Positions 31,826-51,700 of a stretch of DNA of 64,000 bases are shown here, one piece after another. The notes under the pieces were generated by a model, which saw only the letters and a program-made list of their open reading frames with translations, was not told the origin of the DNA and ran no database searches. This DNA comes from an uncultured Poribacteria bacterium (lineage in GTDB: Bacteria > Poribacteria > WGA-4E > PCPOR2b). The stretch spans positions 2,475,940 to 2,539,939 of the forward strand of contig OY282444.1 in assembly GCA_958296125.1 (NCBI GenBank), in the 5' to 3' direction. A program made the position numbers and the translations under genes. Positions within the stretch are counted from its first letter, which is position 1. Each line of letters begins with the position of its first letter.

Positions 31826-32168
31826 GGGCAAAATCCATCCTCTATGCTCCAAGTGATGTGGATATTTCTTGATTGCGAACTAGTTTAGCATAAACCGAGC
31901 GATAAATCAATCCCTTTGAACAGTTGACCCCTGAAAATTGAGTAGTCCCTCACCAATTTCTTAGGGGTACATTTTAACTTGACAAAGGCAATAATGTCTG
32001 ATAGAATGATTTTGTGTTTTGTGATCGGCAGGGGGTTCATTCGCTTCAGCAGCAAAAGCCTCAACGATATGGGGCTTTCGAGAGGCTGGCCGTTGAACCG
32101 ACAACATCAGGGATTAAGGGAGAGAGGCACGCGCCTCACTCTCAAATAAAAAACAGGAAGTGCAAATC
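31826..32168. other. 343-bp intergenic region: kelch operon promoter and structured leader
   Basis: It holds the promoter at 31979-32007 and, after it, a leader of about 155 nt with small stems (for example AAAGCC/GGGCTTT near 32055-32078 and AGGC/GCCT near 32120). I see no coding sequence. Confidence 0.5.
31979..32007 (+). promoter_or_regulatory. Sigma-70-type promoter of the kelch gene cluster
   Basis: A perfect TTGACA (31979-31984), a 17-nt spacer and TAGAAT (32002-32007; five of six). It is one of the best promoter matches in the window. The long leader to the GTG at 32169 leaves room for post-transcriptional control. Confidence 0.65.
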
Positions 32169-33245
32169 GTGAAACAGCTGATAATCCGTAATACCTTGGT
32201 AGCTAGTTTGGTATTGTGCTGCCTATTTGGCGTTCCCACTGTCAGTTTCGCAGGGGAGTGGGAAGCAAAAGCACCCCTGCTGAGGAAACGGTGGGGCCTA
32301 GGAACGGAAACAGTCAATGGGAAGATTTATGCCATTGGCGGACAAGATGATTTACCGGTCGCGGGTAAAAAAGTGGCAGAGTACGACCCGGAGCGGAACG
32401 AGTGGACGGAGAAAAAGGAGATCCCAACGGGTCGATTTCGACTTGCTACCAGTGTGGTCAGAGGGAAGATCTATGTTTTCGGAGGAACTGTCAATAATTT
32501 TGAAGCGGTCCCGACAGTAGAGGAGTATGACCCCAAGACCGACACATGGAGCAAGAAAGCGGATATGCCAACCGCGAGGTTAGGGCTCGCCACCGCTGCG
32601 GTAGGTGGGAAAATCTATACTATTGGCGGGGCAGAATCGTTCTTCTTTCCATCGGGTGCCGTCGAAGTTTACGATCCCGTAACCGATACTTGGGAGCAGA
32701 AAGCGGACATGCCAAACCCAAGATGGGGTATATCTGCTGTCGCGGTTGCCTCAAAGATTTATGTCTCAGGCGGAGCGATTGATAACAGTCATCAGAAATA
32801 TACCGATACGATGGAGATGTACGATCCCAAGACGGACACTTGGACCAAGAAAGCGGACATGCCAATCGAATATTTTAATGTAGGGCTCAGCTTTGTCAAC
32901 AGTGGGAAGATTTACGCCATTGGGGGACAGAAGTGGAAAGGTCGGGACAAAGATGGAAGATTGGATCAGAATTGGACGCTCCATTGGACTGTCTGTGAAT
33001 ATGATGTAGAAAAGGACAAATGGACGCGGCTCAACGATAAACTGCCGACTGAAAGGTCAATTCTATCCACAAGCGTCGTTGATGGGAGAATTTACGCAAT
33101 CGGAGGTTGGCGAGGCGGTTGTTGTGGGCCCACGCCGGTGGTGGAAGTATACACTCCTGATGGTTGGCCCTTCCCTGAGAAATTCGCCGTTTCTCCCCAA
33201 GGTAAGCTGGCGGCAAAGTGGGGAAATATTAAGCAAAGACGATAA
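32169..33245 (+). CDS. Secreted kelch-repeat protein 1 of 5
   Basis: 358 residues. A signal peptide runs to about residue 28 (MKQLIIRNTLVASLVLCC, ending TVSFA). Then come about six kelch blades with the recurrent pattern 'GKIYxIGG ... YDPxTDTWxKKADMP' (for example VNGKIYAIGGQDD, VRGKIYVFGGTVN, VGGKIYTIGGAES). The C-terminus is 'GWPFPEKFAVSPQGKLAAKW' plus GNIKQRR, the tail shared by the cluster. I chose GTG 32169, not the GTG at 32160, because AGGAAG then has an 8-nt spacer and the protein starts MK like its paralogues. Such beta-propellers usually bind proteins or sugars; no enzyme motif is seen. It is 21 bp before the next copy. Confidence 0.85.
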   Translation: MKQLIIRNTLVASLVLCCLFGVPTVSFAGEWEAKAPLLRKRWGLGTETVNGKIYAIGGQDDLPVAGKKVAEYDPERNEWTEKKEIPTGRFRLATSVVRGKIYVFGGTVNNFEAVPTVEEYDPKTDTWSKKADMPTARLGLATAAVGGKIYTIGGAESFFFPSGAVEVYDPVTDTWEQKADMPNPRWGISAVAVASKIYVSGGAIDNSHQKYTDTMEMYDPKTDTWTKKADMPIEYFNVGLSFVNSGKIYAIGGQKWKGRDKDGRLDQNWTLHWTVCEYDVEKDKWTRLNDKLPTERSILSTSVVDGRIYAIGGWRGGCCGPTPVVEVYTPDGWPFPEKFAVSPQGKLAAKWGNIKQRR

Positions 33246-33266
33246 AAAAACATGGAGGTGCACATC

Positions 33267-34346
33267 ATGAAACATCAGATGCAGCGTTACCTACTAACGG
33301 GATTGATAGCGTGTGGGATATTTGGTTTTTCGACAATGGCTTTTGGGGGAAAATGGGAGGAGAAAGCCACGCTGCCAAAATTGGGTGCCATTGCAGGCGG
33401 TGTTTGGTGGTTGGGGGCCGAGGCGGTCAATGAGAAGATTTACATCTTTGGCGGACAAGATGATTTGCAGCCTGCGGGAAAACTGGTGCATGTATACGAC
33501 CCAGATCGGGACGTGTGGACCCAACTTAAGAAATGGCAAAGGGGTCGATTTCGGGTAGGCAGTGCCACCGTGAGGGGAAAGATTTATGCCGTTGGGGGAA
33601 CGGAGGATAATTTTCAGGCGGTTCCGTTCTTGGATGAGTACGATCCCAAGACCGACACTTGGACTCCTAAAGCCGATATGCCCACCCCGAGAATGATGAC
33701 AGCTACCGCTGTGGTGGGGGGGAAGATTTATGTCATCGGTGGCGCGGAATCCTTCTACTTCCCGTCAGCCGCTGTCGAGGTCTACCACCCCGCAACTGAT
33801 ACCTGGGAGAAGAAAGCGGACATGCCAAACCCGAGATGGGGGGCAGGCGTTTTTGCCGCTGAGGGGAAGATTTATATCTGTGGCGGTGCCGTGGATCAAA
33901 GCCATCAAAAGGCTACTGACCTGACGGAGATGTACGACCCGAAAACCGACACCTGGGAGAAGAAAGCGGACATGCCAGTCTCCTATTACGATATGGCGGT
34001 GAGCTTCGTCAATAGTGGAAAGGCTTATGCCATCGGGGGAAGGGCATTTAAAGGTAACGACAGAGATGGACGATTGATTGACGGGTGGCGCTATCATTGG
34101 ACCGTCTTTGAATATAATTTAGAGAAGAACAAATGGGCAAGGCTAAAGGACCAGATGCCAACTCCCCGGGCGAGTTTAGCTACAACCGTTCTGGACGGGA
34201 AGATTTATGCCATCGCGGGACATAACGGCATCCCCGGGATTACAGAGGTATATACCGCCGACGGTTGGCCCTTTCCAAAAGTCTTTGCGGTCTCTCCCCA
34301 AGACAAGCTAACGACTACGTGGGGAAAAATTAGGCACAACCACTGA
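33267..34346 (+). CDS. Secreted kelch-repeat protein 2 of 5
   Basis: 359 residues. Signal peptide MKHQMQRYLLTGLIACGIFG to about residue 26, then kelch blades (EKIYIFGGQDD, VRGKIYAVGGTED, VGGKIYVIGGAES, AEGKIYICGGAVD, GKAYAIGGRAF, DGKIYAIAGHNG). The tail 'FAVSPQDKLTTTWGKIRHNH' closes it. It is closest to copy 3 (shared 'GVFxAxGKIYICGGAVD', 'YYDMAxSFVNSGKAY' and 'NKWARLKDQMPTPRA'), so the pair probably arose by recent duplication. ATG 33267 follows GGAGGTG. The open frame begins 15 nt earlier at 33252, but that start would overlap the ribosome site. Confidence 0.85.
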   Translation: MKHQMQRYLLTGLIACGIFGFSTMAFGGKWEEKATLPKLGAIAGGVWWLGAEAVNEKIYIFGGQDDLQPAGKLVHVYDPDRDVWTQLKKWQRGRFRVGSATVRGKIYAVGGTEDNFQAVPFLDEYDPKTDTWTPKADMPTPRMMTATAVVGGKIYVIGGAESFYFPSAAVEVYHPATDTWEKKADMPNPRWGAGVFAAEGKIYICGGAVDQSHQKATDLTEMYDPKTDTWEKKADMPVSYYDMAVSFVNSGKAYAIGGRAFKGNDRDGRLIDGWRYHWTVFEYNLEKNKWARLKDQMPTPRASLATTVLDGKIYAIAGHNGIPGITEVYTADGWPFPKVFAVSPQDKLTTTWGKIRHNH

Positions 34347-34462
34347 GAGTCTGTTTGAAAAGCCATTTAATCGAGAAGGGGTCGTAATTTGACGCACATT
34401 CTCACTATATTCGGCAACGCTTTTTAAAACAGGTTCTAAAAGAAAGTTGGAGGAAATTAATT

Positions 34463-35548
34463 ATGAAACACCGAATCACATATAACATTTTAAGAGGTAT
34501 GATAGTGTGCGGTTTGATCGGCTTTTCGGCGGTCAGCTTCGCGGGAGAATGGGAGCAAAAAGTCAATCTGCCACAATTAGGGCCCCGTGCTGTAGGTATC
34601 TGGGGGTTAGGTGTCGAAGCGTTTAACGATAAGCTTTACGGCTTTGGCGGACAGGATGACTTGAAACCGCCGGGCAGATTTGTGGGAGAATATGATCCCG
34701 TGCGCGATGTGTGGGAGGTAAAACAGAAATGGCAGCGAGGCAGATTTCGCGTAAGTAGTGCCATCGTAAGAGGGAAGATTTACGCCTTTGGGGGAACGGA
34801 GGATAATTTCCAAGCGGTGCCGTTGGTGGATGAATATGATCCCGAGACCGACACTTGGACCCCCAAAGCCGATATGCTTACCCCGAGGATGGCGACGCTC
34901 TCTGCGGTAGTAGGGGGTAAGATTTATCTTATCGGTGGCGCGGACTCTTTCTTTTTCCCTTCCGCTGCGGTTGAGGTCTATGACCCTGTCAGCGACACAT
35001 GGGAGAAAAAGGCGGATATGCCTAACCCGAGGTGGGGGGCGGGTGTTTTTACGGCTAGGGGGAAGATTTACATCTGCGGCGGTGCCGTGGATAACACCCA
35101 TCAGAAGTATACCGACCTGACGGAAGAATATGACCCGAAGACGGACACATGGACGAAGAAAGCAGACATGCCACTCGACTATTACGATATGGCGGCGAGT
35201 TTTGTCAATAGTGGAAAGGCTTATGTCATTGGAGGGAGAACCTTTAATGGCAACGCAAAAGATGGGCAACCGATCGAGGGGTGGATCCTGCATTGGACCG
35301 TCTTTGAGTACGACTTAGAGAAAAATAAATGGGCAAGGTTAAAGGATCAGATGCCAACCCCACGGGCAACTTTGGCAACTGCTGTCCTAGATGGGAAAAT
35401 TTATGCGGTCGGTGGCCATGGGGGCGGAGGACCTCGGAGAGAGACGGAAGTCTATACGCCTGAGGGCTGGCCCTTCCCTAAAGCCTTTTCGGTCTCTCCC
35501 CAAGACAAGCTAGCGACGATATGGGCGGATATTAAACGGCATCGGTAG
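34463..35548 (+). CDS. Secreted kelch-repeat protein 3 of 5
   Basis: 361 residues with signal peptide MKHRITYNILRGMIVCGLIG ending FAG near residue 28, the same series of kelch blades as copy 2, and the tail 'FSVSPQDKLATIWADIKRHR'. GGAGG lies 10 nt before the ATG. A 116-bp gap separates it from copy 2; it has no clear promoter, so read-through from the first promoter is most likely. The sister relation to copy 2 is visible across the whole length. Confidence 0.85.
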   Translation: MKHRITYNILRGMIVCGLIGFSAVSFAGEWEQKVNLPQLGPRAVGIWGLGVEAFNDKLYGFGGQDDLKPPGRFVGEYDPVRDVWEVKQKWQRGRFRVSSAIVRGKIYAFGGTEDNFQAVPLVDEYDPETDTWTPKADMLTPRMATLSAVVGGKIYLIGGADSFFFPSAAVEVYDPVSDTWEKKADMPNPRWGAGVFTARGKIYICGGAVDNTHQKYTDLTEEYDPKTDTWTKKADMPLDYYDMAASFVNSGKAYVIGGRTFNGNAKDGQPIEGWILHWTVFEYDLEKNKWARLKDQMPTPRATLATAVLDGKIYAVGGHGGGGPRRETEVYTPEGWPFPKAFSVSPQDKLATIWADIKRHR

Positions 35549-35636
35549 TAGGGTAGGGACAACTATCACTCAACTTGGAAATCAGAGGGGTCTCTGAAAG
35601 GAAACCAAACTATATCTTATACAGGAGGTCTGTAAC

Positions 35637-36707
35637 ATGAAACGGGCAAAATATCAAATGTTAGCGGGATTGTTGTTATGTGACCTGTTCGGCTTTTCGG
35701 CGACAGGCTTTGGAGCCTGGAGAGAGTTGCGACCTATCCCAACGGGTCGATGGGGGTTAGCCGCTGCCGCTGTGGGTGACACAGTTTACGCCATCGCTGG
35801 ACAGGATGATAGCCCCAAGATCTCAAAAGTGGAAGCATTCGACACAGGACAGGGCAAATGGGAAGGGAGAAAGGAGATACCGAGCGGTCGGGTGCGGCAC
35901 GCTGCGGTCACTTTCAAGGGGAAGATTTATGTCTTTGGGGGAACCTTCGATGGGATTGCCGCCTTGGGGCAGGTCGAGGAATACGACCCTAAAAATGATG
36001 TCTGGAAAATGAAGGCAGATATGCCGACCCCAAGAATCGCTCCGATGGCGGTCGTAATGAGCTCGAATATTTACGTCATCGGCGGCGCAACCGACCTCTA
36101 CTTTCCGTCTCCGGCGATCGAGGTATACAACCCCACGACGGACACTTGGGAGAAGAAGGCAGATATGCCGAATCCGAGATGGGGGGCAGCCGCTGCCGGC
36201 ATCGCCACCAAAGGGAAGATTTATATCTTTGGTGGCGCGACCGATTTCACCCACGAAAACTCAACCACAGAGGTGGATGAATACAATACCAGAACGGAGA
36301 CTTGGACACCCAAATCCAAGTTGCAGCGACCGCTTCATAATTTTTCCGCCAGCTTTGTGAATAGCGGCATGATTTATGTCATGGGCGGTCAGAAATGGAA
36401 AGGTAAAGGGGGCGTTGATGGGGGCATTAACGACCCAGATTGGACCTTCTATGACGATGTCTGGGAATACTCGCCAGAGGAGGATAAATGGAGTCGTATG
36501 CAAGCCATGCCCAAGTCAAAGTCCAGTTATGGATCTGCCGTTGCGGATGGCAGGATTTATGTCATCGCCGGTTGGGCGGGCGGTGCCGGTGACGAAAATA
36601 GCGTGCATGTCTATCAGCCGCCCGGTTGGCCCTTCCCCAAGAATTTTGCGGTCAACTCCCAAGGCAAGCTAGCAACAAAATGGGGAGAGATTAAAAACCA
36701 TCAATAA
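35637..36707 (+). CDS. Secreted kelch-repeat protein 4 of 5
   Basis: 356 residues. Signal peptide MKRAKYQMLAGLLLCDLFGF to about residue 27, kelch blades (VGDTVYAIAGQDD, FKGKIYVFGGTFD, SSNIYVIGGATD, TKGKIYIFGGATD, SGMIYVMGGQKW, ADGRIYVIAGWAG), tail 'FAVNSQGKLATKWGEIKNHQ'. It groups with copy 5 by 'GATDFTHE-STT-VDEY' and 'RPLHNFSAxFVNSG', which copies 1-3 lack. AGGAGG precedes the ATG. The ligand is unknown. Confidence 0.85.
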   Translation: MKRAKYQMLAGLLLCDLFGFSATGFGAWRELRPIPTGRWGLAAAAVGDTVYAIAGQDDSPKISKVEAFDTGQGKWEGRKEIPSGRVRHAAVTFKGKIYVFGGTFDGIAALGQVEEYDPKNDVWKMKADMPTPRIAPMAVVMSSNIYVIGGATDLYFPSPAIEVYNPTTDTWEKKADMPNPRWGAAAAGIATKGKIYIFGGATDFTHENSTTEVDEYNTRTETWTPKSKLQRPLHNFSASFVNSGMIYVMGGQKWKGKGGVDGGINDPDWTFYDDVWEYSPEEDKWSRMQAMPKSKSSYGSAVADGRIYVIAGWAGGAGDENSVHVYQPPGWPFPKNFAVNSQGKLATKWGEIKNHQ

Positions 36708-36817
36708 CGAATCTGTTTTGCAATGGACAACACTACTTGAGTGGGAAAAACGCGCCTAAAGAAAGGGGAAGGTTCTCCGAAGGGCGCTCAAATTAAACCT
36801 TATAAGGAGGTATTACG

Positions 36818-37894
36818 ATGAAGCGGACAAGCTATCAAATGTTAGCAGGGTTGACCCTATGTGGGCTGCTTAGTTTTTGCTTCACTACAGCCAGCTCTGC
36901 AGCTTGGCGCAAATTGAAGCCGATGCCAACGCATAGATGGGGAGTCGAAGCCGCCGCTGTCGGTAACAAGGTTTACGCCATCGGCGGGCAAGACGATACC
37001 CCCCAAATCTCCAAAAATGAAGAGTACAACATAGATAAGGATAGCTGGGTCGAAAAGAAGCCGATACCTACAGGTCGGGTGCGGCACACCGCTGTCTCTT
37101 ACGATGGAAAGGTTTATGTCATCGGCGGGACCCGTGACGGAATTGCACCTATGGCAGCAGTCGAGATGTATGACCCGAAAACCGATACGTGGAGCAAGAA
37201 AGCGGACATGCCAACGCCGCGAATCGCCCCTGTTACCGTCGTGTTGAGCGGCAAGATTTATACTGTTGGTGGCGCAACCGATGTCTTTTTCCCGTCCCCA
37301 GCGATCGAGGTATACAACCCTGTGACAGATACTTGGGAGCAGAAAAAGGACATGCCGAATCCAAGATGGGGAGCAGCGGGTGCCGCTGTGCCGGGCAAAG
37401 GGAAAATCTATATCTTTGGCGGCGCGACCGATTTCACCCATAAAGAGTCAACCACAGACGTGGACGAATACGATACCAAAACAGAAACCTGGGTGCCCAA
37501 AGCCAAGATACAGAGACCTCTCCATAATTTTTCCGCCGCCTTCGTCAATAGCGGGAAAATTTATGTCATGGGCGGTGAGAAATGGAAAGGTAAAGGAGGA
37601 ATTAAGGGGGGCGGCAACGATCCAGATCTTGTATTTTACCAAGATGTCTGGGAATACTCGCCAGAGGAGAATAAATTGCGCCGTATGGACCCGATGCCCA
37701 CCGCGAGGGGAAGTTTTGGAGTCGCTGTCACAAATGGGAAGATCTATACCATCGGCGGTTGGAACGGCGGTGCCGGTGCACAGGAGATAGAAAATGAGGT
37801 CTATCAACCGCCCGGTTGGCCCTTCCCTAAGAAGTTCTCGGTTGATCCGCGGGAAAAGTTAGCGGCGAAATGGGGGGCGTTGAAAACCCGCTAG
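36818..37894 (+). CDS. Secreted kelch-repeat protein 5 of 5
   Basis: 358 residues. Signal peptide MKRTSYQMLAGLTLCGLLSF ending ASSA, kelch blades like those of copy 4, tail 'FSVDPREKLAAKWGALKTR'. AAGGAGG precedes the ATG. It is the last member of the array; an EctD-like oxygenase gene follows after 90 bp. Differences from copy 4 are spread evenly, which points to an older duplication than a simple assembly repeat. Confidence 0.85.
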   Translation: MKRTSYQMLAGLTLCGLLSFCFTTASSAAWRKLKPMPTHRWGVEAAAVGNKVYAIGGQDDTPQISKNEEYNIDKDSWVEKKPIPTGRVRHTAVSYDGKVYVIGGTRDGIAPMAAVEMYDPKTDTWSKKADMPTPRIAPVTVVLSGKIYTVGGATDVFFPSPAIEVYNPVTDTWEQKKDMPNPRWGAAGAAVPGKGKIYIFGGATDFTHKESTTDVDEYDTKTETWVPKAKIQRPLHNFSAAFVNSGKIYVMGGEKWKGKGGIKGGGNDPDLVFYQDVWEYSPEENKLRRMDPMPTARGSFGVAVTNGKIYTIGGWNGGAGAQEIENEVYQPPGWPFPKKFSVDPREKLAAKWGALKTR

Positions 37895-37984
37895 CGGTAG
37901 GGAGCGTAGAAATATCTCAGTGGTAGAGAACGTGGATTCGCGTTCCCTACAGCGAGGTTTTGACCGCAAAATAAGATAGATACC

Positions 37985-38770
37985 ATGAGACTCAACGATG
38001 CCCAAATCGCACGCTTTAATCAACACGGCTATCTGTTTTTCCCAAATCTACTGGAGGCCGATGAGGTGAAGGTCCTGCAGCGGGCGATGCCGCAAATCCT
38101 CAGTCGCCGGGGGCCGGAGGTGATACCTGAGAAAGATGACCCGAACTCCGTCAGGCTCGCATTTGGGGCGCATGTTTATTCCGAACCGTTCCGGTATCTC
38201 CCGCTGCTTCCACGCCTGCTGAACCCAGTTCGCCAACTGTTGGGTGACGATGTGTATCTCCATCAGAGCCGTCTTAACCCCAAACAGGGATTCGGGGGCG
38301 GCGCGGCGTGGGATTGGCACCAAGATTTCCCGCCGTGGCATCGCATCGACGGGATGACGGAACCGAAATGTATTATGGCATCTGTGTTTATCGACGATTG
38401 CACAGCGGTTACGTCACCGCTACTGGTCGTGCCGGGGTCACATACGTATGGACTCCTCGACTCTAAACCCCATAAGGACGCGAAGGGCTATGCTTTGCAC
38501 CATATTGACCGTCCCACTCTAGAGCAGCTGGCTGAAGATAGCGGTATCGAAGCGTTGATAGGATCCGCAGGATCTGTCTGTTTTTGCCATTGCAATGTCG
38601 TGCACGGTTCAGCCAACAATGTCTCCCCTTGGCGACGAGCGATCATGTATTTGAACTACAACGCTGTCAGCAACGCCTGCACCGGCACAGAGCGCGGTTG
38701 GTATCACAATAACCGCAATTTCACACCGCTACAACCGATTGATGACGACCGCCTGAAAGCACTCGCATAA
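37985..38770 (+). CDS. Phytanoyl-CoA dioxygenase family, EctD-like
   Basis: 261-residue Fe(II)/2-oxoglutarate oxygenase. The iron site is textbook: H-x-D in AAWDWHQDFPPWHRIDGM, a 'PLLVVPGSHTYG' block and the distal histidine in 'CNVVHGSANNVSPWRRAIMY' with the arginine that grips 2-oxoglutarate. The H-x-D context and the 'DGM' that follows are close to ectoine/proline-type hydroxylases, but no ectoine genes are nearby, so the substrate is open. The start ATG has a weak ribosome site. It is the third PhyH-type gene in the window and the one with the most standard active site. Confidence 0.88.
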   Translation: MRLNDAQIARFNQHGYLFFPNLLEADEVKVLQRAMPQILSRRGPEVIPEKDDPNSVRLAFGAHVYSEPFRYLPLLPRLLNPVRQLLGDDVYLHQSRLNPKQGFGGGAAWDWHQDFPPWHRIDGMTEPKCIMASVFIDDCTAVTSPLLVVPGSHTYGLLDSKPHKDAKGYALHHIDRPTLEQLAEDSGIEALIGSAGSVCFCHCNVVHGSANNVSPWRRAIMYLNYNAVSNACTGTERGWYHNNRNFTPLQPIDDDRLKALA

Positions 38771-39198
38771 TCATCAGTGTGCTGATGCTGTCGAATCCTC
38801 TCTCTCACTATCACTTTCCGTGAACGCAACCCTCCCCTATTCTCTCCAATCCTCAACTCGGAAACCGTTGAAAGCCGATGACCCTATTACTGTCTTATTG
38901 AGGGCAACTGTAGCGAATACAGATCTACGTCCTTCGTTTTGGGATATTGGGGTGTATTCTTTCTATCGTTGATTCTATACTGGTATGTGAGGCGTGATAC
39001 ATGATACCTGAGAACAACACCGCAGAGAACACAGAGAGTGGAAAGATGAGATAATGGGGAGGCGAGGAGGCAGAAAGAAAAGTTAATGCAACAACGCAAG
39101 GACACAGAGGAGAAAGACGAGATAACGAGAGACACCGTAGGTTGAGTTGAACGAACAGTGTGAAATCCAACACCTCAATGAACCACTGAACTCTTATT
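38771..39198. other. 428-bp intergenic region with a gene relic and repeats
   Basis: The region contains the relic described separately, a small hairpin CATCAG/CTGATG just after the oxygenase stop, and purine-rich segments near 39025-39110 (CAGAGAACACAGAGAG and similar). GTAGGTTGAGTTGAACGAAC and the following bases near 39138-39172 form an imperfect inverted repeat of a kind that recurs in intergenic DNA. No intact gene is seen. Confidence 0.5.
38925..38972 (+). pseudogene. Relic of the 3' end of a second copy of the downstream DUF6785-like gene
   Basis: Read in one frame, these bases give LRPSFWDIGVYSFYR followed by stop TGA. The intact gene downstream ends LIRVFWGIEVYSFYR and stop TGA. Over the last 29 bases the DNA differs at three positions. 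Upstream of this stretch the similarity stops. It therefore looks like what is left of a tandem paralogue after deletion. Confidence 0.6.
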
Positions 39199-41121
39199 AT
39201 GACTGAACAATCAATTGGCAACCAAACCCCAAACACCGGATTAACGTTTCGGGCGGTCATGCTCGCGTTGGTACTGATGCCGATCAACACCTATTTTATT
39301 ATCACGAATGAGGTCAAGTACATCGGTACGCTGGCGACAACGATGTCGCTGATCTACAACGTGGTTATCAGCCTCACCGTGCTAATCCTCATAAACGCAC
39401 TGATAAAGCGTTTCCTGCCACGTTTTGCGCTGCGACAAGGGGAGTTCATGACTATCTACATGATGCTCTCGCTCTCTTCAGCACTCGCCGGTCATGATGT
39501 CATGCAAACTGTCGTGCCAACCCTCCCGCACGGTTTCTGGTTCGCTACGCCTGAAAACGAGTGGAAGACGCTTTTTTGGAGACACCTGCCCCCTTGGCTG
39601 ACAGTGAGAGATCCGTTAAGTCTGCTCGATTTCTATGAAGGCCAGAGCACACCCTACACAAAGACACACCTTCAACCGTGGTTACGCCCAATTCTATGGT
39701 GGACAGTGCTTTTAACCGTCCTGATCTGGGTGATGATCTGCATGGATGCCATCCTACGTCGGCAGTGGATTGTCCGAGAACGGTTGGCGTACCCAATCGT
39801 TCAGCTGCCGTTGGAGATGACCCGTTCCGATGGTACTTTCTTCAAATCCAAGATGATGTGGCTCGGATTTGCCGTCGCAGGCGGGATTGACTTAATCAAC
39901 GGGTTGCACGTTCTGTTCCCCGCTTTCCCAGAGATCCCCGTGCGCAAAGCGGAGATAGGTCAGTTCTTTACCGAGAAACCGTGGAATGCGATGGGGTGGA
40001 CACCGCTCTATACGCTACCCTTTGGACTTGGACTGGGGTTTCTGATGCCGTTGGAGATGTCCTTTTCGCTGTGGTTCTTCTTTCTTTTTTGGAAAGCGGA
40101 GCGCATCTTGGGACGCGCGTTGGGGCTCGCCAGTTTTCCGGGCTTCCCGTATGAGGGCCCCCAAAGCATCGGGGCTTTTTTCGCCATCGCCTGCTTTGCC
40201 CTCTATGGCGGGCGTCGTTACTTTATTTCGATCTTCAAGAACCTTGGGCGCGATCAACCCGGCGAAGAGAACGAACCGATGAAGTATCGGTGGGCGGTAT
40301 TGGGATTGACGGGCGGGGTAATCTTTTTATTGGCTTTTTCCTTCTACGGTGGGATGACGCTTTGGATGGCGGGGCTCTATTTTTTCACCTACTACCTTTT
40401 GGCGATTGCTGTGGGCCGCATCCGTGCTGAGGTGGGACCGCCAACGAATGAGATGTTCCTTGTCAATCCCCGTCTTTTTATCACAGATGCAATTGGCACC
40501 CGTCGGATCCCGCCGGGGAGCTTGACCATGATGGGGTTTTATTATACGTTCAATCGCGGCTATCGCGCCCATCCGATGCCGCACACCCTTGAAGGGTTCA
40601 AAGTGGCGGACGCGACGCAGATGGCCCATCGCCGCTTAATTGGTGTGATGGTTTTGGCGACGGTGGCGGGTATTCTGACTACTTTTTGGGCATACCTCAC
40701 GCTCGCTTACAGCAGCGGTGGCGATAATATTAATGTGGGGTTGGGAAATGGGGCGTATGCTAATATGCGGAACTGGCTCTACAATCCAACGGAGACCAAT
40801 GGGCCCGCAGTGCTTTTTATGGCGGTAGGCTTCCTCTTTACCGGGTTCCTCTGGGCGATCCGTATGCGATTTCCACTTTGGCCCTTCCATCCCGCCGGTT
40901 ACGCGATTGCCAGCAGCCCTTGGACCTTCGGCTGGGTATGGTTTTCGGTATTTGTCAGTTGGGCAGTAAAAGCGACGGTGTTGAAAGTCGGTGGGATTCG
41001 GCTCTATCGGAAGACACTGCCCTTTTTCTTGGGGTTACTGTTCGGAGAGTATATAGTCGGTGGGGGTTGGGTGCTCATCCGTGTCTTTTGGGGGATTGAG
41101 GTTTATTCGTTCTATCGTTGA
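39199..41121 (+). CDS. Large polytopic membrane protein, DUF6785/DUF6784-like
   Basis: 640 residues with about 12-14 hydrophobic segments spread over the whole length (VMLALVLMPINTYFII, 'LVIGxx'-type helices, 'VIFLLAFSFYGGMTLWMAGLYFFTYYL', and a final 'LPFFLGLLFGEYIVGGGW'). Recognisable blocks are RQGEFMTIYMMLSLSSALAG, 'RERLAYPIVQLPLEMT', 'EVGPPTNEMFLVNPR' and 'WPFHPAGYAIASSPW'. I recall these from large uncharacterised membrane proteins of Poribacteria, Armatimonadetes and Planctomycetes. It resembles oligopeptide-transporter-like folds in length and helix number, but the function is unknown. No strong ribosome site is seen before the ATG. Confidence 0.72.
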   Translation: MTEQSIGNQTPNTGLTFRAVMLALVLMPINTYFIITNEVKYIGTLATTMSLIYNVVISLTVLILINALIKRFLPRFALRQGEFMTIYMMLSLSSALAGHDVMQTVVPTLPHGFWFATPENEWKTLFWRHLPPWLTVRDPLSLLDFYEGQSTPYTKTHLQPWLRPILWWTVLLTVLIWVMICMDAILRRQWIVRERLAYPIVQLPLEMTRSDGTFFKSKMMWLGFAVAGGIDLINGLHVLFPAFPEIPVRKAEIGQFFTEKPWNAMGWTPLYTLPFGLGLGFLMPLEMSFSLWFFFLFWKAERILGRALGLASFPGFPYEGPQSIGAFFAIACFALYGGRRYFISIFKNLGRDQPGEENEPMKYRWAVLGLTGGVIFLLAFSFYGGMTLWMAGLYFFTYYLLAIAVGRIRAEVGPPTNEMFLVNPRLFITDAIGTRRIPPGSLTMMGFYYTFNRGYRAHPMPHTLEGFKVADATQMAHRRLIGVMVLATVAGILTTFWAYLTLAYSSGGDNINVGLGNGAYANMRNWLYNPTETNGPAVLFMAVGFLFTGFLWAIRMRFPLWPFHPAGYAIASSPWTFGWVWFSVFVSWAVKATVLKVGGIRLYRKTLPFFLGLLFGEYIVGGGWVLIRVFWGIEVYSFYR

Positions 41122-41128
41122 TTTGTAG

Positions 41129-41148
41129 GTCGAGATTCATATCTCGAC
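41129..41148. repeat. GTAGGTC-type intergenic hairpin repeat
   Basis: GTCGAGAT-TCAT-ATCTCGAC is a perfect 8-bp stem, preceded by GTAG. Similar hairpins preceded by GTAG occur at 10910-10929 and near 41925-41940 (GTCCGG-CTTTGA-CCGGAC). Confidence 0.5.
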
Positions 41149-41186
41149 GAAATACCCGGCGTGGCGATTTTGGAAAATTGACCGCC

Positions 41187-41648
41187 TTATACAGAGATGT
41201 TTCCTATCGCTTCAACTTGCTTGCGTAACTGTTCAATTTCGGCGCGGATCTCCTTCTGCTGCCTGTCTCTATAAGCGATAATGATTTGAGGGATTGCAAT
41301 TGAGGCTGCTATCAACCCAATGAGCGCAATCGTCAAAACCCATAGATAGTCCATTCTCTGGTCCAACCCATCAATTTTGGCATTTAGTTTGTCATCCAAC
41401 CCATCAATTTTGGCATTCAGTTTTTCATCCAACCCATCAATTTTAGCATTCAGGCTTTTATCCAACCCATCAATTTTGGCATTCAGGCTTTTATCCAACC
41501 CATCAATTTTGAGATCGATATACTCCCTTGTCCGTTTTTCGGAAGCAGCGATCTCTTCCTTGATGATGGTTCGCAAATCCTCCTTGGTCAATTCTCCAAA
41601 CACAGGTGATGCCAAAAGTAGTAGTGACAAAACTGTTATGACCTTCAT
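41187..41648 (-). CDS. Coiled-coil membrane protein with 11-residue repeats
   Basis: 153 residues. A signal-like N-terminus (MKVITVLSLLLLASPVFG) is followed by a helical region with five near-identical 11-residue repeats of the form KIDGLDKSLNA (about residues 47-100), encoded by 33-bp repeats. Then comes a membrane helix 'LIGLIAASIAIPQIIIAY' and a basic, helical C-terminus. An 11-residue (hendecad) period is typical of right-handed coiled coils, so a trimeric or tetrameric stalk is likely. A related gene is cut by the right edge of the window (63777-64000) and shares the helix almost exactly. AGGAGG precedes the ATG. Function unknown. Confidence 0.75.
   Translation of the reverse strand: MKVITVLSLLLLASPVFGELTKEDLRTIIKEEIAASEKRTREYIDLKIDGLDKSLNAKIDGLDKSLNAKIDGLDEKLNAKIDGLDDKLNAKIDGLDQRMDYLWVLTIALIGLIAASIAIPQIIIAYRDRQQKEIRAEIEQLRKQVEAIGNISV
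41398..41515. repeat. 33-bp tandem repeats in the coiled-coil gene
   Basis: The units CCATCAATTTTGGCATTCAG plus 13 more bases repeat about four to five times. They encode the 11-residue units and keep the frame, so changes in copy number would lengthen or shorten the stalk without breaking the gene. Confidence 0.7.
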
Positions 41649-41697
41649 TATTGATGCGCCTCCTTGGGGACGGATTTATAAGGGCAAACGGTATTAT

Positions 41698-41726
41698 ATA
41701 TTATCACGGTTTCATTGATTTATCAA
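41698..41726 (-). promoter_or_regulatory. Sigma-70-type promoter of the coiled-coil gene
   Basis: On the minus strand TTGATA (41726-41721), a 17-nt spacer and TAATAT (41703-41698). It would give a leader of about 45 nt to the ATG at 41648. Confidence 0.45.
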
Positions 41727-41744
41727 TATTTTCCTGATGTTGGT

Positions 41745-41827
41745 TAGGGCCATTTAATTCTTCGGCCCGTGCCATCCGTGCAAGCTTGCGGGGGAACGAA
41801 CTACCCGCCAAAATCGGTCAAAAACCG
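41745..41827. repeat. Dispersed intergenic repeat, left copy
   Basis: Blocks TAGGG-Y-CATTTAATT, TTCGG-Y-CCGTGCC, GCTTGCGGGGG and CTACCC-R-CCAAAATCGG are shared, in the same order and orientation, with 42918-43034. The two copies flank the secreted-protein gene at 42055-42807. Confidence 0.55.
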
Positions 41828-41998
41828 CCATTTTCTCTCTGTCTGAGCGATGTGTCGGGATTCGGAGATCCCTCCTACAGGAGCACTAAATGTCCCTAGA
41901 TGTTTGTTCTTCGTAGGTCCGGCTTTGACCGGACACCGAAAGGATTGCCCTTACAAAAGAGGAACAGATGATTCGGTTGGGAGAACGGAATAAAAAAA

Positions 41999-42026
41999 GG
42001 GCGAGACATCCATTGATGCCCCGCCC
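41999..42026 (-). terminator. Intrinsic terminator of the secreted-protein gene
   Basis: On the minus strand GGGCGGGGCATC pairs with GATGTCTCGCCC (12 pairs, two G-U) around AATG and is followed by at least six T. It lies 29 bp after the stop codon of the gene at 42055-42807. Confidence 0.8.
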
Positions 42027-42054
42027 CTGTTATGCTACGCGTTGTCTTTAATTC

Positions 42055-42807
42055 TTAGAAACCGCGTTTCAGCTTTGCCCACGTTGTGGCAAGTTTGCCC
42101 GCGCTATCGACTGACAACTGTTTGTCCGTTGAGGGGATATTCTGCAATCCCTGCTCCGGCAAAGAATCAACACGGACCCAATAGTAATTCACTTGACCGC
42201 CACGTCCACCAAGACCTGGAGGTCCCTTCGCCCATTTATTATTTTGCACGACGATTGACAATCTACCATCAACCGAGTACTTGAGGATATTCTGTTCAAC
42301 CGAAAATGTGAGAATGTAATGCTCGCCGCCCTTCGTATCCTTTGAATCAGGTCGTTTGGGGCGTCCAGCGTTACCGCCGGGGGTAATTTCAGAGCCTGCG
42401 CCGCCGGTAAATTCATACATAGAGATGGTGTTGGAGTTGTAGCTGACCTCGACAAAATAGAAGTCTTTGGTCGGTTCAACGGTCCGGACAAAGAGATGGA
42501 AGTACTTGCTATCGTCGCCGATTTTTCGCGCAGACACTTCTAACTCATAGTCGGTCAACTCTGCAGGGTTGACATCCGGGTGATTGAAATAGAGCCCGGT
42601 ATTGCCTTCAGATTTAAGTTCAAGTTCATCTCCCTTAACTTCTGCTTGTGCGCCAGGGCCTACCTCCCAATGCTTGATTCCTTCAGCCCAGGGGATGGTA
42701 GCTTCGTCGTCCCCTCGTTTGCCGTAGATGACAGCATCCGCAGGATACACGCTCAGAAAAGCGAATGCACACACCAGCAGCAGGGTAAAAAGTGATTGGA
42801 TTTTCAT
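42055..42807 (-). CDS. Secreted protein, LamG/DUF1080-like fold, with the kelch-cluster C-terminal tail
   Basis: 250 residues with a signal peptide ending YPADA near residue 25. The body is beta-rich: HWEVGPGAQAEVKGDELELK, 'YFHLFVRTVEPTKDFYFVEV', 'GGEHYILTFSVEQNILKYSVDGRL'. This resembles the jelly-roll of LamG/DUF1080-type sugar-binding or glycosidase-like proteins, though I cannot name a family with certainty. The last 20 or so residues, 'LSVDSAGKLATTWAKLKRGF', match the tails of the five kelch proteins although the bodies are unrelated. AGGAGAG precedes the ATG, with a good promoter upstream and a terminator downstream, so it is a single-gene unit. Confidence 0.75.
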   Translation of the reverse strand: MKIQSLFTLLLVCAFAFLSVYPADAVIYGKRGDDEATIPWAEGIKHWEVGPGAQAEVKGDELELKSEGNTGLYFNHPDVNPAELTDYELEVSARKIGDDSKYFHLFVRTVEPTKDFYFVEVSYNSNTISMYEFTGGAGSEITPGGNAGRPKRPDSKDTKGGEHYILTFSVEQNILKYSVDGRLSIVVQNNKWAKGPPGLGGRGGQVNYYWVRVDSLPEQGLQNIPSTDKQLSVDSAGKLATTWAKLKRGF

Positions 42808-44741: not shown

Positions 44742-45671
44742 TTAGTAACTATAAGAGAGTGATATAAAATGCGTACTGTCATCGTCGAGGTTATTGACAG
44801 CACTATCGCCCGCTTTCAAGGCGTAATCGAGTTGAAGCCCACTGACATTGACACCGAATCCGACGAAAAACCGACGGCGATCGCTGGTCAGTTTGCTGCC
44901 ACCCCGAATTGCGAAGGTGTTCGCGATCAGGTATTCCGTCCCAATATGGAGGCTGGTAGTGGATTCTGGCAGGTCAATAACCTCGTGTTCGACATCAACG
45001 GAGAAGGTCGCAACGTTCTTGTGGTGGACTCGATAAGCGAGACCACCAGCGATTAGGAGGGGCAATTCGCTGCCGGCGATTGAACCACCAAAATTCCTGA
45101 CTGCGAGACCGTAGCTGAAGGTACCTGCCTCGTTGTGCCCTAAAAGCCCGATATCGTTACCACCGAAACCACTTTCGCTCGAATGATCTCCAAAACTATC
45201 CATAAGGAAGCGTCCACTTACGCCGAGGCTCACGGCACCGAAGTCATGACCGTAGGAAAGGGAATAAGCGTTGGAATTATAGTTAAATGAACCGCCCGCC
45301 TGATCGTCGCTGCTACGGGAAGGTATACCATCGACACCAGCATTGACCACTGCCAACCCCAACCCGCCTTTAGCACCAACTTTTTTAACGAAGCCGATAA
45401 AGCTGTGTTTTCTATCGAGAGAGAGGCGTGCGGAAGATAGCGTGATTGTTAAGTCATCCACCGCCGGCAATCCGGCGGGATTCCATATCGTTGAAGTCGC
45501 ATCGTCAGCGATGGCGGTAAACGCGCCGCCCAATCCGAGGGACCGCGCACCGGAACCCATCCCAAGATGGGGTGCAGCATTCACGCTAGCGAAGCAGACA
45601 GGTGCAAGCAAAACTGCGAGGGCAAAAAACCCGATTGAACTGAATAGTACTTTGTGCCTAAGTTGAAACAT
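44742..45671 (-). CDS. PorV/PorQ-like outer-membrane barrel protein
   Basis: 309 residues. A signal peptide ending VCFASVNA is followed by the family start 'LGMGSGARSLGLGGAFTAIADDATSTIWNPAGLP', then repeated amphipathic strands and a terminal 'FISLSYSY' with a final aromatic, as in outer-membrane barrels. PorV-type proteins serve type IX secretion in Bacteroidetes by collecting substrates with C-terminal sorting domains; relatives also exist outside Bacteroidetes. It lies directly after a giant protein with a C-terminal sorting-like (FlgD-Ig) tail, which is the expected pairing. AGGAGGGAG lies just before the ATG. Confidence 0.78.
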   Translation of the reverse strand: MFQLRHKVLFSSIGFFALAVLLAPVCFASVNAAPHLGMGSGARSLGLGGAFTAIADDATSTIWNPAGLPAVDDLTITLSSARLSLDRKHSFIGFVKKVGAKGGLGLAVVNAGVDGIPSRSSDDQAGGSFNYNSNAYSLSYGHDFGAVSLGVSGRFLMDSFGDHSSESGFGGNDIGLLGHNEAGTFSYGLAVRNFGGSIAGSELPLLIAGGLAYRVHHKNVATFSVDVEHEVIDLPESTTSLHIGTEYLIANTFAIRGGSKLTSDRRRFFVGFGVNVSGLQLDYALKAGDSAVNNLDDDSTHFISLSYSY

Positions 45672-45750: not shown

Positions 45751-48700
45751 CTAGTCGCTGACAATTGCCATCTTCAGAATAGCAGATTGAGGTTCGAGCT
45801 CGCTTTCCATGAGAATATGGCAGAAGTACACCCCTCGAGCTAAATTGTCGCCCGAATTGGTTTCGCCCTGCCATACTATCTCAACCGGGCCCGCCTCTCT
45901 GATGGAATCCGCGATAGGCTGTGCAACAAGTCTGCCGGTGAAATCGTAAATCCGGATGGTTATGCTCGCTTGCCTCGAAAGTCTAAAGGCAAGCGTGGTG
46001 CCGGTATTATCTTCAAATGGATTCGGATAATTCCGTGCATTGGCAATCCCGATCCGTTCAACAAAGAAGGTCCACTCTTGAACTGCCGTGTTTGGATTCG
46101 GTGCCAAGTCGGAGAGTTCCAGCTTCACCGTATGTTGACCAAACTGTAGGTCATACTTAGGTGTGAATGTCACCTGAGTTTCTGACATCTCGTCTGGATC
46201 AATCGCGGCACCATCCAGCCAAAGCTTAACCGATTCACCGTCAACCCCCGACATGTTATCCGTGTAGGTCGCCGAAATAATCGGCCTCCGATTTTCGGTG
46301 TGTTCCTGCGATGGACGCGTGATGAGAACACTCGGCGGTATCATGTCAAGCTCAACGGTAAATTGCCATTTGCTTGATGCCTGATTTCCACTCATATCCG
46401 TTACTTTAACATCAACGGTATGTGTGCCATCCTTCAAAGGAAGGGTCGGCGTAAACGTGGCTGAAGTCTTATCAGAACGCGTTTGGGCAACCCCGTCGAC
46501 CGGCAAATTCTTGCCATCTTTGACCGTGATTTCAATCGTATCCACACCCGACATGTCATCGCCGGCGGAAACCGAAATGATCGGTTTATCCAAGTGAATC
46601 ACCCCGTGCGGAGAGGTAGTCGTAATCATTGGTGGCGTATCATCTAGTTCAACCGTAAACTGCCACTCTGCCTCGGTCCGGTTGTTGTATCTATCAATCA
46701 CCGTAATCCTTGCCGTGTAGGGACCAGGAGTTACTGAGATACTTGGCGTAAATGTGACAGTTGTAGAGGTCGGACTTGAGCGTCTGCCTGAGCCTTGATT
46801 ACCCGGAACACCTGCGAGAATCAGCGTGATGCCATCACTCTTGAAGCCAGATTCATCACTCACCGTCGCAGCAAGCACCGGTCTATCCGTCCGAATGATT
46901 CCGAGCGGTGAGTAGGTGACAACTTGCGGTGGCGTTGTATCAGGATTCACTACGGTGAACGTCCACGTTAAGGTTGAAGCACCACCGGTACTTTCGGCAA
47001 CAAGCGTTACACTGTGTGTTCCGAGCGGACTGTCGGTAAAGTTAAAGTTCGTCTGACCCTTTACCTCGGTCCCCCGTCCCACTTCGACGACCATAGCCGG
47101 CGAGAACGAGATCTCCTGAAGTGGATTGTCGTCAATCGCGAGCATGATGCGTGTGATGTCCGATTCTGCGTCGGTTACCCGTGCGGTGATTCGACCGAGC
47201 TTCCGAGTAACTTCACCCTGCGGAGATGGGCCCGAAATAACTGGCGGGGTGCTATCCAAGGAGACCGCGAAACTAATAGCACTTTCAGCAGTATTCCCCT
47301 CACCATCAACAATCTTGACAGAAATGGTGTTATCACTTCCGCGTTGGAGAATTGAGTCATCTGCGCCAACAAGGGGCGGCTGCATCGTATAGGTCAGCCA
47401 CTTATCCTCTAGAGTCCCTTCCATATCTGTACCGTTGATCTGGAACTCCGTTACTGTTAGCTCCCCGGACCCTGTCAGGGCGGTGCTGATAATCAATGGC
47501 TGCCTTGGATCAACAATTTGTCCAGCGAGCGGTGATACGATTGACACCGTTGGCTTCACACCCTCCACCGTAAACTCAACCACCTCTGCGGCACCAACAT
47601 GGCCAAGGACATCCGTCGCGGTGGCTTCGATGCGGTATGCACCGCCAGCTAGGTCGCTGGCGTGGGTGTAGACCACATTCCCACTCTGGGTTAAAACCTC
47701 GCCGGTCGCAGCTGCGGTTATGTGAATCATGCTTTCAACAACGTCGATCGCTTCGCCATCGGGTAAACGGGTCAAGGTGATAACAACGGGCATCGGATCC
47801 GTAAGGGTAGGATTGAAGCCACTCGCATCGGTGTAAGTGATATGGAGAGTTGGCAACGTGGTCAACTGACTCCGTAAAGTCGGCGAGACAATCTTAACCA
47901 CAGGTGGTGACCTGTCAACCCGGATACCTGGCAAGCCGAATCGGGCGGTGCCGTTTGGCTTGATCACTACTCCGACAAGGTTGAACCGCCCCTCATCCAA
48001 TACAGAGGTATCGAGGGTGATTGCAAAGGTAGTGCTTCCATCGGCGTTAGCGGTGACCATAATCCCGTCGTCGGTGAGGGCACCGAGCGTCCGTGCGGAA
48101 GCCCCATCATCTCCAATCAGCACATCGAGGTCACTTGCAGCGACATTCGGCACGGTCAACGTAAATTCAATCGTATCGCCGATTGCCGGGAACCCTATCG
48201 GGTACATGGTATCAATTTCACTCGGGCTCCGTGCTTCGTTGAGAGTATCAACAACGCTGAGGATATCAACCGATGGAGCCGCAAAGTTGGGCGGCGGTGT
48301 GAAATTGCCAACCTCAACGGCAATCTCCATAGCGACAATTCTCGCCTCTGGCGAGCCATCGGCGGCGTGTGCCACTGCCATGAAGGTATACATCCCATTC
48401 GGAATTGACGCTATATTCAAGGTTGCTTTGTAGGTGTAATTGCCGGCATCATTGAAGACCGCATCCACACCCAATACCGCACCAGAAACGCGATCGTTGA
48501 CAGTGAGCTTAATGCCCCCTGCGAACACTCCCGGATGTGCACCTGTCCGAGCGATCAGGGTCAGCATGGGGTCGGGAACGCCTTCAGCGAGCAAGCCGCT
48601 GACGTAGTAGCTCCCATCTTCACGGGGATCGAGCGACTCATCAACTTCGTTGCCAACTTGGGTAATCTCTGTCGGTGAGTAGTTGTCCACAGAGAGGTCG

Positions 48701-51700
48701 TCCATCACCCCATCTGCCGCTGGATACCCTGTGCCAGCCGTATCAACGGCGATGGCTCGGACAATATAAGGATTGTCATCTAGGGTTGCATCGCTTGCAG
48801 CGGGGGTATCATCTAAGATGGTATCCTCAAGGAGCGTGGTATCTACCGAAAGCGTCCATTGTCGGTAGAATGGAGCAATCGACGCGGTTGGAGCACCGTT
48901 GACAACTGCACCGACCAGATCTTCGATGATTGCAATTTGAACATTAGAGACAACCGTCGTATCGGCTAATTGGGCGATACCAACTGCCCCCCAATCCGTA
49001 TCTTGGGAACGGCGAATCTCAAACTGAACCGCGGTGGTTACCGGGTTCGTCAGTACCTGTGTGAATGCACTTATCGTGACCTCTCCACGAGCGGCACCGC
49101 TATCAGGGTGAGAGTCCATCGCCTCCGCATAAACAGCAGAGATTTCAGGCGGCAGACGACGCTGATATGCGAAGGTTGCCATTGACATCTCGGAGATGCC
49201 CAGTGCGTTGGTCGCAACGGTGCGCACCATCACGTGGCCTGTCGTATCGGGAAGGGAAACGTAATCACCAACTTGCCATTGGACTTCAAGTTGATCCCCT
49301 TTCACCGCGTTGGCAAGCTGATTTTCGTTCAGCATCCCAATCGGTTGCCAACCACCGCCCGCTATCTGGTATTCTACCACAATCGACAACGGATGGTCAG
49401 TGCGCTCTGTTATTTCAACGGCGAGCGTTACCATCGTGTCTGAGAAGATGGTCACATCTCCAGCGGTGGACTGTGTTTCAAAGGGACCGTCCATCGTGCC
49501 ATTGGCATCGTAGTCGGTCTGCACGCGGGTCACCATCGCCCTATCGGGGTCTGGAGGAACGATGTTCAACAGGACTCCCGGGCCTATGTTCGAGTTGATA
49601 TTCAGGATATCATCAATACCGACGGTGCGAAGCCCGAATCTCCCCATCAGAGTGCTCTCATCACCGCGGATGAACATCTGGATTTGATGCGGCGGCATAT
49701 AGGTAACTGGCAGCAACGCTTCGAGGGGATTGGTCATAAGGCTCATCATATTTAACGACAACAGATCCGCTGTCGCCACTGGCTCCCACACTGCATTCGC
49801 TGCCGGAGATCCTGCGGCATCTAACCGAATTATCTGGTAGAGGTAAGTCGCTGGGTCTCCGTCGCCCGTTGGGGTTGCAGAGAGGGTTAAGCTCGCCTCC
49901 CCTTCAACCGGGAGCGCGGTCGCGATATAGACACCGTCGTCCCGCAGATACATGCCGATGTTCTCACCGGGCGCATCGGGGGTAAGCATAACGTCGGCAG
50001 TTGGCGATGTCCGATCCACCGTGAACATTTTGCCGGTGAGCCGGTCTGTGGCACCGCTGCGATATTGAACATCAACATCTAACTGATACGCGCCATCGGC
50101 AGCAAAATCAAATTTGCCAACCCAGAGGGATTGTGAATCATCTACCGTTGGAACGGTAAACACAGACCTCACCATTGGATCCAGCATCATGGGATTGAGC
50201 TCGGCTGTGAGGAGCGCGTCGACCGCTTGAAGGATTCCACGGTCTTCAAGCTGTAGGTTCCGTGGATCGGGCATCGGCCATCCGGATAACGTTAAGCCTG
50301 TTAGTGCATCATAATACGACTGAGCAAGCTCAATTTGGTAGTAGTAAGCGACTTTGGAACCGGGGGTTAGCTCGACTGCCGCTTCCCATACCACGGTTCC
50401 TCCAATCGACTTTGCCTCCATAGGCATCGGGGCATGTCCGTCAATCATCACGTTCACTGACTCAAAGACCGGCATATCTCCCGATGGCAGGAAGAGCGTT
50501 GCGAGCTCTTCTTCCAGTTGGAAGGTGTGAGTAAAGGTGCCGCCGGCCGGTACAGAAACCGCTTCAACCATCCCGGACTGCGGACCGGCGATGCTGAAGG
50601 TCACGCTTTCGGCGGTCGGACCAACGACAGTATACAGATTCAGTTTATCGCTATTCACCCATCGACCGGGATCCGGCTGAGGGTCATTTATCAGGATATG
50701 CCATATCGGTCTGGGGGTTATCCCGTTGCCGAAGTTCTCCTTGTCGATATGCTCATCGGTGGGGTCGAACCCCGGGGGCAGCTCTGACCGCAGCCCGCGT
50801 AACGTCTCAGCGATTAATGAGGCAGATAGCAACAAGCCCGGCGGTATTGAGCCAGATGGAAGTATTCCTATCAGATCTTCACTAGCCTCGGCGATATCCT
50901 TCAAACCCAAATTAATCAAATTCCCCAACGCGTTAAACTGAACGTCTGCGTAATGGGTATTCACCGAAAGCCCACCCAGCCTTAAAGCGGGAGGTATGAG
51001 CTCGAATGTCGCGATTGACTCACCTTCGACATCCAGGGCGTTGGTCACCGTGACGCGAACCATCGCCTGACCGTCTATGTCAAGCAGGTCTGCGAAATCG
51101 CTCATCCGATTCCAGTTGACCTGAAGCCCGGTCTCGGCATCCGCGATGTCATCTCCGGTCAGCATCGCAATCGGTTTCCAATCACCTTCGCCGTTGATCT
51201 GGAAGTCAATGGCAATTGAGGTCAATGGATGGGGTGTGCGCTCCATCATTTCAACGGTCAGGGTGACATCGCTCCGGTTTGAGAAGATGGTCACGCCATC
51301 GGAGACGCGCTGCTCCATTTCAAAGGGACCGTCCGTTGTGCCATCGCCGTTGTAGTCAGCGTGCACGAGGGTCACCGCGGCGGTATCGGCATCTGGCGGA
51401 ACGATATCCAACATCCTCGGCATTGTGTTGGAACTGATATTTAAGAGGCTGTCAATACCCACAGCGCGAATACCGAATGTACCCAATGCACCCGCGTCAC
51501 CGACAGGCACCTGGATCTGGTGTGGAGCCATATAGGTGAGCGAGAGCAGATCCCCATTCAACATCCAGGGATGCCACACCTGATTACCCGGATCGCCATT
51601 GGTTACGGAAATCATCTGGTATAGATAAGCGTCTGGCTCCGATGGGTCACCCATTGGGGTTGCCGTGAGGTTTAAGGTCCCCGCCTCCGTATGCGCTGCG

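Follow-up and report, generated by a model that had tools for sequence, protein, structure and literature searches.

A short C-terminal tail shared by exported proteins of Poribacteria: a candidate envelope recognition tag

We analyzed a stretch of 64,000 nucleotides from an uncultured Poribacteria bacterium (assembly GCA_958296125.1, contig OY282444.1, positions 2,475,940 to 2,539,939 of the forward strand), referred to below as the window, in which five kelch propeller proteins and a sixth secreted protein end in the same short peptide, hereafter the tail. A first-pass annotation of this DNA had proposed that the tail is a possible sorting signal shared by otherwise unrelated secreted proteins. 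All six tails it had reported were recovered in a six-frame search of the window, which returned no other match to the motif (Table 1). Within the window, the five kelch proteins are paralogs of one another, so that the tail is shared by just two unrelated bodies, and taken alone this would be weak evidence for independence from fold. The sixth protein has relatives that are 44 to 45% identical in other Poribacteria; it matched no family in Pfam or NCBIfam, and its earlier description as LamG-like stays unproven.

Table 1. Tailed proteins and adjoining features of the window (positions are those of the window).
Feature	Position	Strand	Remarks
Kelch propeller protein 1	32160..33245	+	signal peptide and tail; Kelch_1 E = 5e-51
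Tail FAVSPQGKLAAKWGNIKQRR of kelch protein 1	33183..33242	+	six-tail profile E = 3.9e-17
Kelch propeller protein 2	33252..34346	+	signal peptide and tail
Tail FAVSPQDKLTTTWGKIRHNH of kelch protein 2	34284..34343	+	motif and profile match
Kelch propeller protein 3	34463..35548	+	signal peptide and tail; modeled with AlphaFold2
Tail FSVSPQDKLATIWADIKRHR of kelch protein 3	35486..35545	+	profile E = 4.6e-18
Kelch propeller protein 4	35637..36707	+	signal peptide and tail
Tail FAVNSQGKLATKWGEIKNHQ of kelch protein 4	36645..36704	+	motif and profile match
Kelch propeller protein 5	36818..37894	+	signal peptide and tail
Tail FSVDPREKLAAKWGALKTR of kelch protein 5	37835..37891	+	motif and profile match
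Sixth tailed protein, secreted, without Pfam match (LamG-like in the first-pass annotation)	42055..42807	-	
Tail LSVDSAGKLATTWAKLKRGF of the sixth protein	42058..42117	-	profile E = 1.3e-11
DUF6785/DUF6784 membrane protein	39199..41121	+	adjoins tailed genes in its own genome but not in others
PorV/PorQ-family outer-membrane protein	44742..45671	-	NF033709 110 bits, cut-off 90; context like that of the type IX secretion system (T9SS)
3187-residue immunoglobulin (Ig)-repeat protein	45751..55314	-	T9SS-type sorting domain at its end; without the tail motif (contrast case)

A profile built from the six tails matched 52 places in the organism's own genome (5.16 Mb in a single contig). After refinement, the profile found 51 copies at E < 3e-5, separated by a gap in score from the next match at E = 0.02; below the threshold lay looser variants such as SLSVEVSSNQATLWGRMKLERQ, on WD40-like proteins. 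The tailed proteins of this genome start with a hydrophobic export segment and typically end 2 to 10 residues past the motif. All seven kelch reading frames bear the tail, as do 25 of the 27 Laminin_G_3 loci, the two exceptions being an RHS-like protein in which no signal peptide is evident and a secreted protein whose end is acidic. When tailed proteins were stripped of their tails and the remaining bodies clustered by BLAST at 1e-4, 42 clusters without mutual BLAST similarity were obtained. Pfam domains on these bodies included Laminin_G_3, 3-keto-disaccharide hydrolase, kelch, PD40, CBM4/9, CBM9, and F5/8 type C, as well as esterase, metallophosphatase, PKD, ankyrin, and FG-GAP, with domains of the ConA-like lectin type being the commonest. 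The carriers thus include many unrelated bodies, as first proposed, and are not confined to one fold family.

To survey other organisms, we searched approximately 85,000 prokaryote species genomes with an exact, degenerate DNA pattern that encodes K-L-[AT]-T-T-W-G-x-[ILM]-K. Among the matches listed, 77 of 80 loci belonged to Candidatus Poribacteria, and all 88 pattern matches lay 1 to 12 residues before the stop codon (mode 3). The tail profile matched every one of 85 Poribacteria genomes (22 genera, 10 families), with 24 to at least 104 matches each; these matches, together with close relatives such as the protein in L124, would by themselves point to a poribacterial origin of the window. 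Of 304 distinct closed frames that the profile matched with 15 bits or more, 302 ended no more than 12 residues from the match, compared to the approximately 4.5% expected for a uniformly placed motif. The two remaining frames encode one T9SS-domain protein and one protein with a 40-residue extension, and a separate profile search found an internal motif variant in one further T9SS-domain protein. The C-terminal frames include all 66 of 66 profile matches from four of the more distant Poribacteria genomes. Since the motif lies strictly near the stop codon in both the profile and the pattern sets, its placement is far beyond chance, and the tail is terminal rather than internal, as the six window proteins had indicated. 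Tailed proteins of the distant genomes also start with a hydrophobic export segment, so that the hits fall on exported and not on cytoplasmic proteins.

A few tailed frames were found under other labels. A 1.9 Mb sponge bin labeled Pseudomonadota and apparently not poribacterial (G085; L094 and L262-L265) has six of them on four contigs, including a tailed protease-ankyrin protein that shares 40% identity with a tailed protein of the own genome, and the neighboring genes in this bin showed no similarity to the Poribacteria loci compared; these tails would be explained by transfer of the system or by misbinning of the contigs. Tailed frames are also present on small contigs in bins labeled Thermoprotei (L142) and Deltaproteobacteria (L115), the latter apparently after a frameshifted esterase gene, and both contigs are probably misbinned. 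A phage origin was discarded, as no tail match was found in viral contigs.

The consensus of the tail is [AS]-V-x-P-x-G-K-L-[AT]-T-T-W-[GA]-x-[IL]-K-x(0-5)-COOH. The motif first written for it is slightly too strict, as A or T may follow the leucine and G or A the tryptophan. We aligned the tails on this tryptophan in three sets, namely the own genome, the four more distant genomes, and the pattern set (which is biased at the patterned positions), and obtained much the same profile in all of them: V at W-10 (96-98%), P or a small residue at W-8, K at W-5 (82-98%), L at W-4 (83-93%), G or A at W+1, I or L at W+3, and K at W+4 (98-100%). The near-invariant residues are V, K, L, W, and K, and what follows the motif is mostly 0 to 5 polar or basic residues. 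All synonymous codons are in use at the conserved residues; this free variation indicates that selection acts on the peptide and that the tail is a protein feature rather than a DNA or RNA repeat, and it rules out a DNA or RNA element. Over 271 homologous pairs, which are not independent and in which synonymous divergence (pS) is near saturation, the ratio of nonsynonymous to synonymous divergence (pN/pS) was 0.24 for the tail, compared with 0.29 for the bodies and 0.36 for the stretch immediately before the tail.

In AlphaFold2 models, the tail stands apart from the domain before it. A LamG protein (47 sequences) was modeled with a confident domain at a predicted local distance difference test score (pLDDT) near 90 and with tail residues 254-272 below 50; in kelch protein 3 (7 sequences), the propeller was again near 90 and tail residues 341-361 were at 41-51, forming only a low-confidence helix. 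An amphipathic helix was unsupported, the hydrophobic moment at 100 degrees being 0.30 versus 0.29 for position shuffles; at 160 degrees, the moment was slightly above that of the shuffles (P = 0.05). The tail follows straight after the last strand in the LamG and kelch proteins, as it would if it were simply the last structural element of the domain, but it is found on many folds, and its low-pLDDT residues are unpacked in both models, which makes such a structural role extremely unlikely. Although predicted to be unfolded, the tail is the most conserved segment of its proteins, as expected of a recognition signal.

The tail is therefore phylum-wide, strictly C-terminal, fold-independent, predicted to be unfolded, selectively maintained, and carried by exported proteins. 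Sorting, anchoring, or docking appears to be the best reading of such a peptide, and we favor, with a probability of roughly two in three, that it serves Sec-exported Poribacteria proteins as a short recognition tag at the C terminus, read by an envelope receptor. A tailed protein would be taken across the inner membrane by its signal peptide and would then fold, while its last 16 to 20 residues would stay unfolded. A dedicated envelope receptor would bind the tail near the free carboxyl end and would sort, anchor, or dock the protein, the destination probably being the outer membrane or the cell surface. Of the original suggestion of a sorting signal, the independence from fold and the C-terminal placement on exported proteins were borne out, while sorting itself, like the receptor and the destination, is something we infer from sequence; the data are equally compatible with docking to another envelope component.

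Some points weigh against a recognition tag. The signal-peptide calls rest on a hydrophobicity heuristic for which the start codon was picked to favor such a segment. Across the genomes compared, we found no neighbor family that tracks the tail. Finally, a single frame on the minus strand (L236:6-1514) combines a tailed kelch propeller with sigma-70 region 4 and one membrane segment; its predicted product is apparently anchored in the inner membrane with the tail on the extracytoplasmic side and, being anchored, could not be a freely released substrate, so that the tag would not be a simple release signal.

This fusion would fit extracytoplasmic docking better than release. The tails may plug proteins of the carbohydrate-binding and propeller kinds into a scaffold or membrane complex, much as dockerins do, with no role in transport. 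Besides the existence of a membrane-anchored tailed protein, a cargo rich in ligand-binding folds, the tandem clusters of paralogs, and the predicted lack of folding in the tail all speak for such a docking tag. However, the tailed genes of different genomes have no scaffold or partner family as a recurrent neighbor, and a cargo that takes in esterase, phosphatase, and ankyrin proteins is broad for one complex; we consider docking without transport improbable.

The co-occurring partner gene envisaged in the first-pass annotation did not emerge. DUF6785 membrane proteins, of which the own genome has 23 copies, adjoin 7 of its 15 clusters of tailed genes versus 0.64 expected by rotation, but elsewhere they adjoin only 3 of 117 loci versus 4.6 expected, and we rejected them as a general partner. 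ASPIC/UnbV-like, TPR, sulfatase, PhyH, and sigma-factor neighbors were likewise set aside as generic families without a link to the tail. As the tail is present in all 85 genomes of the phylum, presence-absence profiling within it is impossible.

The own genome also encodes 48 T9SS-type sorting domains (type A) above cut-off, and four of its proteins, together with one from another genome, have a degenerate form of the tail motif (SVEPxxKxxTTLGxIKRxxLLQ) directly before this C-terminal domain (CTD). In the window, the PorV/PorQ-family gene and the gene for the 3187-residue Ig-repeat protein adjoin each other just beyond the tailed cluster. A frame colinear with SprA, of approximately 1,950 to 2,270 residues, was found once in each of the 21 Poribacteria genomes searched. 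The SprA/Sov-like open reading frame of the own genome (L204:11892-18404; G000:C1:1477891-1484403) scored 143 bits (E 6e-42), below the TIGR04189 cut-off of 200, with SprA_N above its cut-off, and sequence search returned no solved homolog. A Peptidase_C25 protein (L260:351-6632) that itself bears a T9SS sorting domain scored 431.6 bits with the PorU model NF033707 (cut-off 420) and is directly followed by a PorV-family gene (L260:6644-7813), one of a family with at least seven proteins. A single-cell study of 2014 saw T9SS sorting domains in Poribacteria and found no Por structural genes (PMC3909097). The predicted SprA-like genes would run contrary to that statement, and Poribacteria probably possess a T9SS-like apparatus.

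The tail might be a T9SS-related signal, a linker or recognition element that precedes the full sorting domain in some proteins and acts alone in others through the SprA/PorU/PorV-like apparatus. The five proteins with the variant (V-x-P..TTLGxIKRxxLLQ) directly before NFPNPFNPETWIPY and the presence of a SprA-like frame, a PorU-type protease, and PorV-family proteins in these genomes speak for such a signal. Yet 27 of 32 distinct CTD starts lack the element, tailed and CTD genes do not co-localize in the own genome, and the tail is without an Ig-like domain. We hold this proposal to be unlikely; it is a narrower form of the recognition-tag proposal, and the confidences placed in the two overlap.

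The same variant before CTDs in a few proteins might instead mark the tail as a vestige, a functionless linker left after loss of the T9SS domain and spread by duplication and shuffling of 3' ends. One decayed CTD gene is indeed visible (L195), but only 1 of 284 stretches downstream of tails gave a CTD-like match, on the opposite strand, and the tail is universal in the phylum and constrained at least as much as the folded bodies; a vestige is very unlikely. In L043, around G000:C1:928677, lies a decayed copy of a WD40-like gene that has the variant motif and whose T9SS sorting domain is broken.

More tentatively, Poribacteria, and perhaps one further lineage, may have a new targeting pathway, separate from the T9SS, in which a free, unfolded C-terminal signal of 16 to 20 residues without a membrane segment is read by a periplasmic receptor. 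If the recognition tag is real, one carried in each genome by between 50 and more than 100 exported proteins would define much of the surface or periplasmic proteome, and in symbiotic members the tagged set would take in proteins likely to meet sponge tissue. The tail provides a simple rule for annotation and, in its putative receptor, a target for searches, while the SprA-, PorU-, and PorV-like proteins bear on the question left open in 2014 (PMC3909097).

Among known signals, the type A CTD of the T9SS (TIGR04183/PF18962) resembles the tail in being C-terminal and in occurring on Sec-exported proteins of many folds. T9SS CTDs are folded, span about 70 to 100 residues, and are defined by an Ig-like domain, whereas the tail is 16 to 20 residues long, is predicted to be unfolded, and has no such domain. 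Neither model matched the six window proteins in Pfam or NCBIfam, and in the tailed set only two proteins matched, both of which have a distinct CTD downstream of the motif. The closest CTERM systems are MYXO-CTERM with myxosortase (PMC11980579) and PEP-CTERM and GlyGly-CTERM (PMC1569441, PMC3237569). Like the tail, their signals are C-terminal, occur in dozens of copies per genome on unrelated bodies, and are universal in one phylum; unlike it, they have a transmembrane segment and a basic end in addition to a signature motif, and the tail has neither a hydrophobic segment nor a cysteine. No CTERM family in NCBIfam matched the six window proteins at E <= 1. Sortase signals are likewise short, conserved C-terminal motifs of exported proteins, but they comprise an LPXTG-like motif and a transmembrane segment, both of which are missing from the tail, whose motif mostly ends 0 to 5 residues from the C terminus. 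Lacking a cysteine, a hydrophobic segment, and an Ig-like domain, the tail is therefore neither a CTERM- or LPXTG-type signal nor a T9SS domain. No signal model in NCBIfam or Pfam matched it, in line with the earlier remark that no named signal has this pattern, and our literature searches returned no description of it. Dockerin-type modules join carbohydrate-binding cargo to a common partner; they are folded calcium-binding repeats, unlike the short linear peptide of the tail. What the tail has in common with C-terminal sorting tags is that one short element recurs at the C terminus of unrelated exported proteins.

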